Positions 6,590 through 10,012 of a stretch of DNA of 64,000 nt are shown here, piece after piece. Source of the DNA: Enhydrobacter aerosaccus (lineage in GTDB: Bacteria > Pseudomonadota > Alphaproteobacteria > Reyranellales > Reyranellaceae); NCBI GenBank assembly GCA_903832005.1, contig CAIKZO010000074.1, positions 1 to 64,000 on the forward strand. Reading direction: 5' to 3'. Position numbers and translations under genes: made by a program. The notes below the pieces were generated by a model. It was not told the DNA's origin. It was given only the letters and a program-made list of their open reading frames with translations, and did no database searches. Numbering within the stretch: the stretch's first letter is position 1; each line of letters starts with the position of its first letter.

Positions 6590-7864
6590 ATGTTCACTTG
6601 GACCGTAAAGCAGCCGGTCGACGGCGCCGTCGTCGCACCGGATGAACGCCTGCCGTGGCCGCAAACGACGGCGCTCGGCCTGCAGCATGTCGTGGCGATG
6701 TTCGGATCGACGATCCTGGCGCCACTGCTGATGGGCTTCGATCCCAACATCGCGATCCTGATGAGCGGCGTCGGCACGCTGATCTTCTTCCTGGCGACCG
6801 GCGGCAAGGTGCCGAGCTACGTCGGCTCCTCCTTTGCCTTCATCTCGGTCGTGCTTGCCGCCACCGGCTATGCCGGCAAGGGCATGAACGCAAACATTGC
6901 CGTGGCACTCGGTGGCATCATGGCCTGCGGCGCCTTCTATGCAGTGATCGCCGTCGCCGTAATGATCTCGGGCACGCGCTGGATCGAGCGGCTGATGCCA
7001 CCGGTCGTGACCGGCGCCGTCGTGGCCGTGATCGGCCTCAACCTGGCGGCCGTTCCGGTGAAGAACATGGCGCCCACGGGCTTCGACGCCTGGATGCAGG
7101 TGGTGACCTTCCTGAGTGTCGGCGTCGTCGCCGTTTTCACCTCGGGCATGGTGCGGCGCCTGCTGATCCTGGTCGGCTTGATCCTGGCCACGGTGATCTA
7201 TGCCGTGCTGACCAACGGCCTGGGCTGGGGCACGCCGATCGATGGTGCCGCGATCGCGGCGGCCGCCTGGTTCGGCGCGCCGCAGTTCACCGCGCCGGTG
7301 TTCGAGAGCCACGCGATGGCGCTGATCGCGCCGGTCGCCTTGATCCTCGTGGCCGAGAACCTCGGTCACCTGAAGGCGGTCAGCGCGATGACCGGCCGCG
7401 ACATGGATCCTTATATTGGCCGCGCCTTCCTGGGCGATGCGATCGCCACCATGGTCTCGGGCGCGATCGGCGGCACCGGCAACACGACCTACGCCGAGAA
7501 CATCGGCGTGATGGCCGCGACCAAGATCTACTCGACCGCGATCTTTGTCGTCGCCGCACTGTTCGCGATCCTGCTGGGCTTTTCGCCCAAGTTCGGCGCG
7601 CTGATCCACGCCATTCCGCTCGCCGTCATGGGTGGCATCTCGATCGTCGTGTTCGGCCTGATCGCGATCGCGGGTGCGCGCATCTGGGTCGACAACAGGG
7701 TCGATTTCGCCGACAGCCGAAACCTGATCGTGGCTGCGATCACCCTCGTGTTGGGCACTGGTGACTTCACTCTGCGGTTCGGCGGTTTCGCCATGGGCGG
7801 GATCGGCACGGCGACATTCGGTGCTATCCTGCTGCACGCTCTGTTGAGCCGGGGGAAGAAATAG
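6590..7864 (+). CDS. Uracil/xanthine permease, NCS2 (NAT) family
   Basis: A 424-residue inner-membrane nucleobase:cation symporter. N-terminal LGLQHVVAMFGSTILAP is the signature opening of the family. VAENLGHLKAV carries the family's conserved substrate-site Glu region near residue 260, and the motif GGTGNTTYAENIGVMAATK near 295-313 is the NAT signature in its uracil-permease form. About 12-14 membrane segments can be seen. Uracil or thymine is the likeliest cargo. Its last 22 codons are duplicated at 8751-8816, see the direct repeats. Confidence 0.9.
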   Translation: MFTWTVKQPVDGAVVAPDERLPWPQTTALGLQHVVAMFGSTILAPLLMGFDPNIAILMSGVGTLIFFLATGGKVPSYVGSSFAFISVVLAATGYAGKGMNANIAVALGGIMACGAFYAVIAVAVMISGTRWIERLMPPVVTGAVVAVIGLNLAAVPVKNMAPTGFDAWMQVVTFLSVGVVAVFTSGMVRRLLILVGLILATVIYAVLTNGLGWGTPIDGAAIAAAAWFGAPQFTAPVFESHAMALIAPVALILVAENLGHLKAVSAMTGRDMDPYIGRAFLGDAIATMVSGAIGGTGNTTYAENIGVMAATKIYSTAIFVVAALFAILLGFSPKFGALIHAIPLAVMGGISIVVFGLIAIAGARIWVDNRVDFADSRNLIVAAITLVLGTGDFTLRFGGFAMGGIGTATFGAILLHALLSRGKK

Positions 7865-7891
7865 CCATGCTGAAAGTGAAAGCCCACGAGA
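7799..7891. repeat. 93-bp direct repeat, left copy (permease end and vestigial enolase start)
   Basis: It matches 8751-8843 without gaps; I count 7 mismatches in 93 bases. This copy holds the real end of the permease gene and then the first eight codons of the enolase-superfamily gene (MLKVKAHE), before the sequence diverges at 7892. The two copies bracket 859 bp of unique DNA holding the TPR gene. The pattern shows that the permease and enolase-type genes were once adjacent. Confidence 0.92.
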
Positions 7892-7911
7892 GCGCGCAGG
7901 CTCGAGGCTGA
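7867..7911 (+). pseudogene. Vestigial 5' end of the enolase-superfamily gene (14 codons)
   Basis: ATG at 7867 opens MLKVKAHE, identical to the start of the gene at 8819, then runs out of homology (SAQARG) and stops at 7909-7911. It keeps the strong GGGGGAAG ribosome site and ends three bases before the TPR gene's ATG at 7915. It could now serve as a short leader ORF coupling translation into the TPR gene. Confidence 0.75.
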
Positions 7912-7914
7912 TTC

Positions 7915-8739
7915 ATGCAGGCGTCGACAGTGACGGTGATCGCACTTGCCGCTGTCCTCGCACCGACGATCGCGGCGGCGCAGGACCTCCGCGAGGCTGC
8001 CGCACGATGCGGAAGCACCACCCCCGATCTTCGCATCATCGGCTGCACGGCCTTGATCGAAGCCGGCGGCGGACCAAAGGGAAATCTTGCGGGAGCATTC
8101 TTCAATCGCGCGAGCGCCTTCTTGCAGACCCGCAAATACGACCGCGCGATCCAGGACTACGATGTCGTTGTGAGACTGTCCCCGAATTGGCCGGAGGCCT
8201 ACGGCAATCGAGGACTCGCCCGCCGCGGCCAGGGTCAGCCCGATCTCGTGATCGAGGACCTTACCCGAGCGATCCAACTCGGCGCGAAGATGTCCGAATA
8301 TTTTCGGGCACGCGGGCAAGAGTACACCAACAAAAACGACTATGACCGTGCTTTGGCCGATTTCGACGAAGCGGTGAGACTCGCTCCGACAAACGCCCCT
8401 GCCCTGGCCAGCCGCGGCGGGATTTATGTGCTTCGAAAAGAATTCGATCGCGCCATAACGGATTTCGATGCAGCGATCCGCATCGCGCCCACAAACGCAA
8501 CCGCCCTGGCAAGCCGCGGACTAGCCTCTCTCTTGGTGGGACGGTTTGATCGATCGATTGCCGATTATGACGCCGTCCTCAAGCTCTACCCCGGCAAGCC
8601 AGACCTTCTGTACTGTCGTGGAGTCGCCAAGTTGAAAGCCGGCGACCGCACCGGGGGAGAAGAAGACGTGGCTGCCGCCCGCAAACTCGACCCTTCCGTC
8701 GTCGCCCAAGCCGAAATTCTCGGAGTCGGGCTGCCTTGA
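7915..8739 (+). CDS. Secreted tetratricopeptide-repeat protein
   Basis: A 274-residue protein. Residues 1-22 are a Sec signal peptide ending at AAAQD; two cysteines follow (ARCGS, IIGCTA), and about six TPR units fill residues 60-260 (for example YDRAIQDYDVVVRLSP, YDRALADFDEAVRLAP, FDRAITDFDAAIRIAP). Units three and four are very alike at both protein and DNA level, suggesting repeat duplication. It should be a periplasmic protein-interaction module; the partner is unknown. It is an insertion between two genes that were once neighbours, flanked by 93-bp direct repeats, so it is probably acquired. GAGG seven bases before the ATG is its only ribosome site. Confidence 0.88.
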   Translation: MQASTVTVIALAAVLAPTIAAAQDLREAAARCGSTTPDLRIIGCTALIEAGGGPKGNLAGAFFNRASAFLQTRKYDRAIQDYDVVVRLSPNWPEAYGNRGLARRGQGQPDLVIEDLTRAIQLGAKMSEYFRARGQEYTNKNDYDRALADFDEAVRLAPTNAPALASRGGIYVLRKEFDRAITDFDAAIRIAPTNATALASRGLASLLVGRFDRSIADYDAVLKLYPGKPDLLYCRGVAKLKAGDRTGGEEDVAAARKLDPSVVAQAEILGVGLP

Positions 8740-8750
8740 GCTGCCTGATC

Positions 8751-8816
8751 GGGATCGGCACGGCGACATTCGGTGCTATCCTCCTGCACGCTCTGTTGAG
8801 CTGGGAGAAGAAATAA
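8751..8816 (+). pseudogene. Remnant of the uracil permease C-terminus
   Basis: An in-frame copy of the last 21 codons of the permease (GIGTATFGAILLHALLS, then WEKK and TAA) with no permease gene in front of it. It lies in the right-hand direct repeat, directly before the intact enolase-type gene. It has no start codon of its own in a sensible place. It marks the ancestral junction. Confidence 0.85.
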
Positions 8817-8843
8817 CCATGTTGAAAGTGAAGGCGCACGAGA
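8751..8843. repeat. 93-bp direct repeat, right copy
   Basis: This is the partner of 7799-7891. It carries the permease remnant and the true start of the enolase-superfamily gene, with GGGAG as ribosome site. The changes between copies are scattered single substitutions, some synonymous in the permease or enolase frame, so the duplication is not brand-new. Confidence 0.92.
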
Positions 8844-10012
8844 TCTTTCGCTGCGATGCGGGCTGGCGGATCTTCTCGTTCCTCAAGATCACGACCCAGG
8901 ACGGCATCGTCGGCTGGTCGGAGTTCAACGAGAGCTTCGGCAGCCCGGGCCTGGCCGGCGTGATCGACGCGCTGATGCCGAACGTCATCGGCATGGACCC
9001 GATGGAGATCGAGCTGGTGAACGCCGTGCTCGCCACCAAGTCGACGCAGTCGCGCGGCGGCGTGGTGCGCCAGGCGATCGCCGCCATCGAGAACGCCCTG
9101 CTCGACATCAAGGGCAAGGCGCTGGGCGTGCCGGTCTACCAGCTGTTCGGCGGCAAGCTGCGCGACCGCATCCCGGTCTACTGGTCGCACTGCGGCTCCT
9201 ACCGCATGCGCAATCCCGACATCGTCGGCACCGATCCGGTGCGCACCTACGAAGACATGACCAAGGTCGGCGAAGAGGTCCGCAAACGCGGCTTCACGGC
9301 CTGCAAGACCAACATCGCCATGGAGATCGACGGCAAGCTGCGCGCCTATCGGCCGGGCTTCGTCGTCGGCAAAGGCTTCCCCGAGCGCAACTGGGACGCC
9401 TTCATTGCGCGCAGTGCCGCCAAGACAGTCGAGGCCTTCCGCAAGGGTGTCGGCAACGACGTCGGCATCATGCTCGACACCAATTTCCATTTCCGCACCG
9501 AAGGCTTCCGCCGCATCGCCGACGCGGTGGGACCGTACGACCTCACCTGGCTCGAGCTCGACGTGCACGATCCCAAGTCGATCGCGCTCCTGCGCCGCGA
9601 TGCGCCCTGCCCGATCGCTTCCGGTGAGACGCTGCTCGAGCGGCGCGACTTCAAGCCCTATCTCGAGGCCTATGCCTTCGACACCGCCATCGTCGACGTG
9701 GTCTGGAACGGCTTCTCGGAGTCGCTGAAGATCGCCTCGATGGCCGACGTCTACGAGGTGAACGTGGCGCCGCACAATTTCTACGGGCACCTGGCGAGCG
9801 CGATCAGCGCGCATTTCTGTGCCGCGGTCCCGAACTTCCGCATCATGGAGACCGACATCGACAGCGTGCCGTGGCGCGACGAGATCGTGACCAACCCGCC
9901 CAAGATCGAGAACGGCGACTTCATCCTGCCGACCGGCCCCGGCTGGGGCATGGACATCGACGAGAAGGCGTTGAAGAAGCACCCGCCCAAGAACTACGTC
10001 GTGACGCAGTAG
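8819..10012 (+). CDS. Mandelate racemase / muconate lactonizing enzyme family (enolase superfamily) dehydratase
   Basis: A 397-residue enzyme with an N-terminal capping domain (about 1-125) and a C-terminal barrel. Expected metal ligands are in IMLDTNFHF (Asp), TWLELDVHD (Glu) and IASGETLLE (Glu). FTACKTN offers a lysine at the end of the second strand, and VAPHNFYGHLASA supplies the C-terminal histidine seen in the mandelate racemase and galactonate-dehydratase groups. The likely reaction is dehydration or epimerisation of a sugar or hydroxy acid; the substrate is unknown. It converges on the carboxylase gene at 10016 with a three-base gap. The start is fixed by GGGAG and by the duplicated copy of the same start at 7867. 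Confidence 0.87.
   Translation: MLKVKAHEIFRCDAGWRIFSFLKITTQDGIVGWSEFNESFGSPGLAGVIDALMPNVIGMDPMEIELVNAVLATKSTQSRGGVVRQAIAAIENALLDIKGKALGVPVYQLFGGKLRDRIPVYWSHCGSYRMRNPDIVGTDPVRTYEDMTKVGEEVRKRGFTACKTNIAMEIDGKLRAYRPGFVVGKGFPERNWDAFIARSAAKTVEAFRKGVGNDVGIMLDTNFHFRTEGFRRIADAVGPYDLTWLELDVHDPKSIALLRRDAPCPIASGETLLERRDFKPYLEAYAFDTAIVDVVWNGFSESLKIASMADVYEVNVAPHNFYGHLASAISAHFCAAVPNFRIMETDIDSVPWRDEIVTNPPKIENGDFILPTGPGWGMDIDEKALKKHPPKNYVVTQ

Follow-up and report, generated by a model that had tools for sequence, protein, structure and literature searches.

A TPR-protein gene inserted with a 94-nt target duplication at a permease/enolase junction in a probable Reyranella

In the window, by which we mean the whole 64-kb stretch of DNA analysed here, a gene for a TPR protein lies between a xanthine/uracil permease gene and a gene of the enolase superfamily, and comparison with related genomes makes it nearly certain that it got there by an insertion that duplicated its target, the permease/enolase junction. 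The pattern is already known; what is new is a clean case with a different kind of gene in a probable Reyranella. A first-pass annotation of this DNA had read the locus in this way, as a TPR gene placed between two formerly adjacent genes with the junction duplicated, and the empty site found in three congeners (G033, G003 and G002) bears that reading out.

The two copies of the target form an ungapped direct repeat of 94 nt (7798–7891 and 8750–8843) with 93% identity, the sole direct repeat of at least 45 nt with copies no more than 6 kb apart that the repeat finder reported in the 64-kb window. Seven mismatches (left-copy positions 7831, 7850, 7854, 7864, 7870, 7881 and 7884) leave a longest common exact run of 33 nt, and this 33-nt stretch, with up to 3 mismatches allowed, occurs 2 times versus 0 in 100 shuffles. 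The annotation had likewise counted seven mismatches and no gaps, in a repeat given as 93 bp; the duplication stands, while its length becomes 94 nt with the C shared by 7798 and 8750, and the spacer, rightly described as holding one TPR gene, measures 858 nt and not 859 bp.

All features are on the forward strand. The permease gene (6590–7864; 424 aa; Pfam PF00860, E 1.2e-89) is an intact ORF, and the left target copy (7798–7891), which corresponds to the same 94 nt of two relatives (loci L005 and L006) as the right copy, contains its 3′ end and stop codon followed by the enolase start and first 8 codons. Reading on from this start, an enolase stump of 14 codons plus stop (7867–7911) ends 3 nt before the TPR start codon. 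The inserted DNA (7892–8749; 858 nt), which is missing from the empty sites, contains one 274-codon ORF (7915–8739) for a 274-aa TPR protein (Pfam TPR_1, E 1.4e-32; TPR_2, E 1.6e-31) with an apparent, putative signal peptide, the N-terminus having been judged by eye. The right target copy (8750–8843) consists of a permease stump of 21 codons plus stop and the enolase start region, and leads into the intact mandelate racemase/muconate lactonizing (enolase superfamily) gene (8819–10012; 397 aa; Pfam PF13378 and PF02746). Both stumps were found at the lengths first described, 14 codons for the enolase and 21 for the permease. Thus the left copy supplies the permease 3′ end, the right copy supplies the enolase start region, and both neighbours are intact.

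The enolase gene was searched for in 65 genomes of the genus (own genome included), all 65 of which gave a match, many of them paralogues at ~65–70% DNA identity. Thirty enolase loci were retrieved: the window's own, three with the permease directly upstream (G033, G003 and G002; 91–92% DNA identity), and 26 others with no permease within the flank examined, at most ~1.5 kb. The TPR gene is absent from all three loci in which permease and enolase adjoin (L004, L005 and L006 of G033, G003 and G002), so that a search of relatives for a single junction without the TPR gene, the check proposed in the annotation, found three congeners that have it. Aligned to each relative, the window falls into two blocks, the first running up to 7891 and the second beginning at 8750. 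On the relative's sequence these blocks share 94 nt (L005 and L006) or 96 nt (L004), the signature of insertion with target duplication. Both flanking direct copies map onto one target, this target is single-copy at the empty site of L004, L005 and L006, and in the alignment to the three empty sites the relatives' sequence is retained across the insertion site. Elsewhere, at G043:C1:3211286-3211666, a permease orthologue is apparently internally deleted, with residues 1–80 matching and then directly residues 373–423.

The copies were also compared with G033, G003 and G002 over 94 columns (two intergenic G033 bases were omitted from its row). At 5 of these columns both copies carry a base seen in none of the three relatives; of the 7 mismatch columns, 3 have the base of all three relatives in the left copy and 1 has it in the right copy, with the relatives mixed at the other 3. 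Each copy seems closer to the other than to G033, G003 or G002, which would most simply mean that the duplication was made in this lineage, though the source may also have been a donor belonging to this species or to a sister species. Fourfold-site divergence of the permease and enolase genes from G003 and G002 is 0.26–0.51 (Jukes–Cantor) versus 7 of 94 positions between the copies, and on this rough comparison, in which each copy is partly under coding constraint, the insertion looks younger than the split from these two genomes. Seven mismatches between the copies also mean that the event is not fresh and that any scar may be blurred.

The inserted gene differs from its neighbours in composition: its GC3 is 0.67, whereas the permease gene has 0.88 and the enolase gene 0.93. 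Its DNA gave matches at E 0.001 or better in 17 of 75 family genomes, own included, and the best DNA match of the insert outside its own genome in this set is partial, with 67% identity over 228 nt. At the protein level, the best congener match by E-value reached 41% and the best match in GTDB contigs 42%, in a scan that may omit this genome or very near kin, and a scan of 5.8 billion proteins, with scoring limited to the 7,999 candidates sharing most words, gave identities of 26–46% among the best 120 of 203 matches. No parent copy was found in the gene's own genome (90% complete) and no donor in the 75 family genomes, the GTDB contigs or the protein scan. With its unusual GC3 and no close relative found, the TPR gene looks foreign; as no donor was found, neither the limits of the captured fragment nor microhomology, if any, can be read off. 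Residues 61–214 of the protein, the repeat region, match a phage-protein family of unknown function (phrog_7590, E 7.7e-22).

The enolase start follows the TPR stop by 79 nt, and no promoter-like or terminator-like site was found in 7700–8900. Since 3 nt separate the stop of the enolase stump from the TPR start codon, we predict that the TPR gene is translationally coupled to the stump, and from this layout we infer that it would be read as an extra cistron of the host operon.

Neither a transposase nor an integrase was detected in the insert, where the TPR gene gave TPR families only in Pfam and five other ORFs in or overlapping the insert gave no Pfam family. Among the 20 inverted-repeat pairs reported, none joins both insert ends, in a search that covered ends of at least 14 nt. 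The statement in the annotation that no transposase or terminal inverted repeats are visible thus agrees with both searches, and the absence of both is in keeping with an insertion with long target duplication. DNA transposons and insertion sequences usually have a transposase and leave a short target duplication, so the 94-nt duplication and the lack of a transposase do not fit either.

The annotation had called this an undescribed way of adding a gene, but Nobusato et al. had introduced the name 'insertion with long target duplication' for such a pattern in 2000 (Gene 259:99), from two compared H. pylori genomes, according to the excerpted text of PMC1643837, which adds that such insertions are frequently associated with restriction-modification genes; in PMC11708052 the term 'long target duplication' occurs in the reference list only. 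As in the excerpted H. pylori cases, the gene here is present in one genome and lacking at the same site in a relative, and long direct copies flank it while the target is single in the relative. Unlike those cases, the cargo is a TPR gene and not a restriction-modification gene (the latter being a frequent association and not part of the definition), the host is a probable alphaproteobacterium (Reyranella), and the copies mismatch at 7 of 94 positions. Transposed genes of Arabidopsis, in the excerpt of PMC2869330, are similar in being single genes with flanking direct repeats, and in 13 of 18 genes with repeats >30 bp the repeats correspond to the target site of the sister species; for these genes the authors propose insertion of a circle. 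They differ in belonging to a plant and in having, in some cases, an identifiable parent gene. In comparisons of bacterial species, 10–18% of small variable segments have flanking direct repeats, which the excerpt of PMC2884548 gives as mostly <30 bp and often read as marks of deletion, whereas the repeat here is 94 bp and the relatives are empty.

As a whole, we consider it probable that a foreign fragment was inserted with target duplication, by end-joining capture at a staggered break, and is read within the host operon. A break at the junction would have left staggered ends ~94 nt apart, and filling in of these ends would have duplicated the target on both sides. End joining by Ku and LigD would then have linked the filled ends to the captured foreign fragment, with neither transposase nor homology needed, and the inserted gene would be read from the host operon, aided by the enolase stump that ends just ahead of its start codon. 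A LigD with a Prim-Pol domain adjoins Ku in the same genome; Ku was present in 3 of 4 genomes tested, with none found in G002, so that the link of Ku/LigD to the event is circumstantial. Of the two origins suggested in the annotation, unequal recombination in its plain form fails as an explanation because the spacer DNA is unrelated to the target, and template switching is a possible candidate route to the duplication. Reversal by recombination between the copies, also suggested there, appears plausible given a longest exact run of 33 nt versus the RecA threshold in E. coli, quoted as 30 bp in the excerpt of PMC2884548. All the empty sites belong to other species, and no excised allele was observed in this lineage.

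The mechanism is inferred, and sequence alone cannot separate staggered-break capture from the integration of a circle; we regard the choice of the former over the latter as close to an even one. In the circle account, which taken as a whole we hold possible though rather unlikely, one homologous crossover brought in a small circle or ligated fragment made of the TPR gene and part of the host junction, so that the junction came to stand on either side. A product of E. coli conjugation has the same arrangement as the one seen here: after conjugation of plasmid DNA, the excerpt of PMC3240628 reports a PCR product for partial lacZ duplication in 56 of 60 clones, with duplications of 109–950 bp in 14 sequenced clones, which the authors read as single crossovers with circular molecules. 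As here, cargo came to lie next to a short homologous segment duplicated in direct orientation; unlike here, where donor homology is not known, the homology had been engineered on the plasmid. At the present locus, however, the 5 bases shared by the copies require the junction piece to come from this lineage and to have been joined to the TPR DNA already, so that two illegitimate joints are still required, and no circle of this kind is known.

An improbable source is homology-facilitated illegitimate recombination in which a related donor had the TPR gene next to its own permease/enolase junction. Competent bacteria are known to acquire foreign DNA by this route, with one end homologous and the other illegitimate, but it generally deletes recipient DNA of about the size of the insert, ~1 kb, in the account excerpted from PMC3240628, and no recipient DNA was lost here. 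The copies share bases missing from G002, G003 and G033, so such a donor would have to be very close kin. We give still less credence to a decayed site-specific integrase island with the permease 3′ end as its attachment site. The duplication does cover the 3′ end of a gene, and the same genome has a duplication of a tRNA-Leu 3′ end around a 1.7-kb insert (locus L158, below), but the Pfam search found TPR families only, with no integrase gene among the six ORFs searched in or overlapping the 858-nt insert, the repeat continues beyond the permease stop codon and enters the enolase gene, and the two copies seem to date from the insertion itself and not to have been long separated. An assembly artefact is scarcely credible even in a fragmented genome (175 contigs, 90% completeness), as the copies differ at 7 places with at most 33 identical bases in a row, and the TPR ORF is intact, with flanking sequence on either side of its DNA in a contig of 98,856 bp. 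Merodiploid formation by transformation was set aside, the duplications there being about 100–900 kb in the excerpt of PMC3784515.

Flanking direct repeats were also sought at other TPR loci. In a first scan of 55 loci, many of them overlapping and own genome included, repeats occurred only at the window's own locus (L033, L220 and L227), at L039 and at L062, where both copies lie within one TPR ORF. As controls, 30 permease loci gave repeats at the window's own and at L082 (35 nt, 80%), and 30 enolase loci at the window's own and at L030 (68 nt). Among 13 more distant TPR loci the scan reports repeats in five (L093, L094, L101, L102 and L104). A set of 29 TPR loci, some overlapping the first 55, had 20 without repeats; L312 is L039 again, the repeats of L323 look palindromic, and repeats were also reported at L310, L313, L326, L327, L329, L335 and L337. 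A last set of 20 loci, mostly longer stretches of earlier sites, gave repeats only at L350 (the L323 site; 1487–1592), again palindromic in appearance. A mobile TPR family was accordingly rejected: flanking duplications are not a general feature of TPR genes, whose loci look no different in this respect from the permease and enolase controls.

At L039 (G049:C406; 1017–1195 and 2196–2374), a secreted-type TPR gene lies between the 3′ end of an ammonium-transporter gene and a 179-bp, 96% identical copy of that end, and its insert, like that in the window, begins 23 nt upstream of the start codon of the TPR gene. A TPR gene also adjoins an ammonium-transporter gene in L049 (G064) and lies between two such genes in L055 (G060); given these layouts, the stump in L039 may derive from a second transporter gene, and the case is not clean.

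Within the genome itself, 101 sequences totalling 1,668,702 bases out of 6.05 Mb were surveyed, each truncated at 20 kb except the window. This returned 25 repeat pairs, the window's own included, of which 10 were inspected, again with the window's own among them. Four loci (L188, L210, L178 and L158) resemble the window case in outline, with no matching empty site in any relative compared. L188 (G000:C37; 14209–14300 and 18302–18393) has a 92-bp duplicate of the 3′ end of an OppC-like permease gene bounding a 4-kb insert; its stump has an internal stop and comes directly after the stop of another secreted-type TPR gene, and three relatives differ downstream of the OppC-like permease, so that they show no empty site. 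At L210 (G000:C52; 814–937 and 2192–2315) a TctC-type receptor gene sits between the copies of a 124-bp repeat that takes in part of a DUF6362 gene, namely its 3′ end, and the DNA there gives patchy partial matches across the genus. L178 (G000:C28; 4711–4855) holds a 145-bp segment of mutS (named by eye) as a stray copy, at a distance of 2.1 kb from the intact gene; the segment is single in ten loci of this gene from nine relatives. In L158 (G000:C3; 9066–9123 and 10829–10886), a 58-bp copy of the tRNA-Leu(taa) 3′ end bounds the 1.7-kb insert, which has two ORFs that look secreted by eye. L178 and L158 have at most one outer flank in common with any one relative. The repeats of L195 (5090–5192) also look palindromic, and this locus was rejected as a similar insert, being a dispersed repeat: BLAST aligned it 17 times within the 1.67 Mb surveyed, a count that includes its own two.

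The repeat-flanked inserts of the surveyed part of the genome and of L039, for none of which an empty site was confirmed in a relative, together with the 23-nt leader common to the window and L039, raise a more general reading that we regard as quite improbable, namely that bacteria like Reyranella recurrently place promoterless fragments consisting of a gene alone (secreted TPR genes included) behind host genes, without a transposase and with duplication of 90–180 bp of target. If this reading were true, the exact 23-nt leader in the window and in L039 (G049) would point to a gene-cassette type of mobility.

The locus itself provides a polarised example, with three empty relatives, of a single, probably foreign gene entering an operon with both neighbours undamaged and no transposase visible. 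Such cases make the mechanism of long target duplication testable beyond H. pylori and restriction-modification genes.
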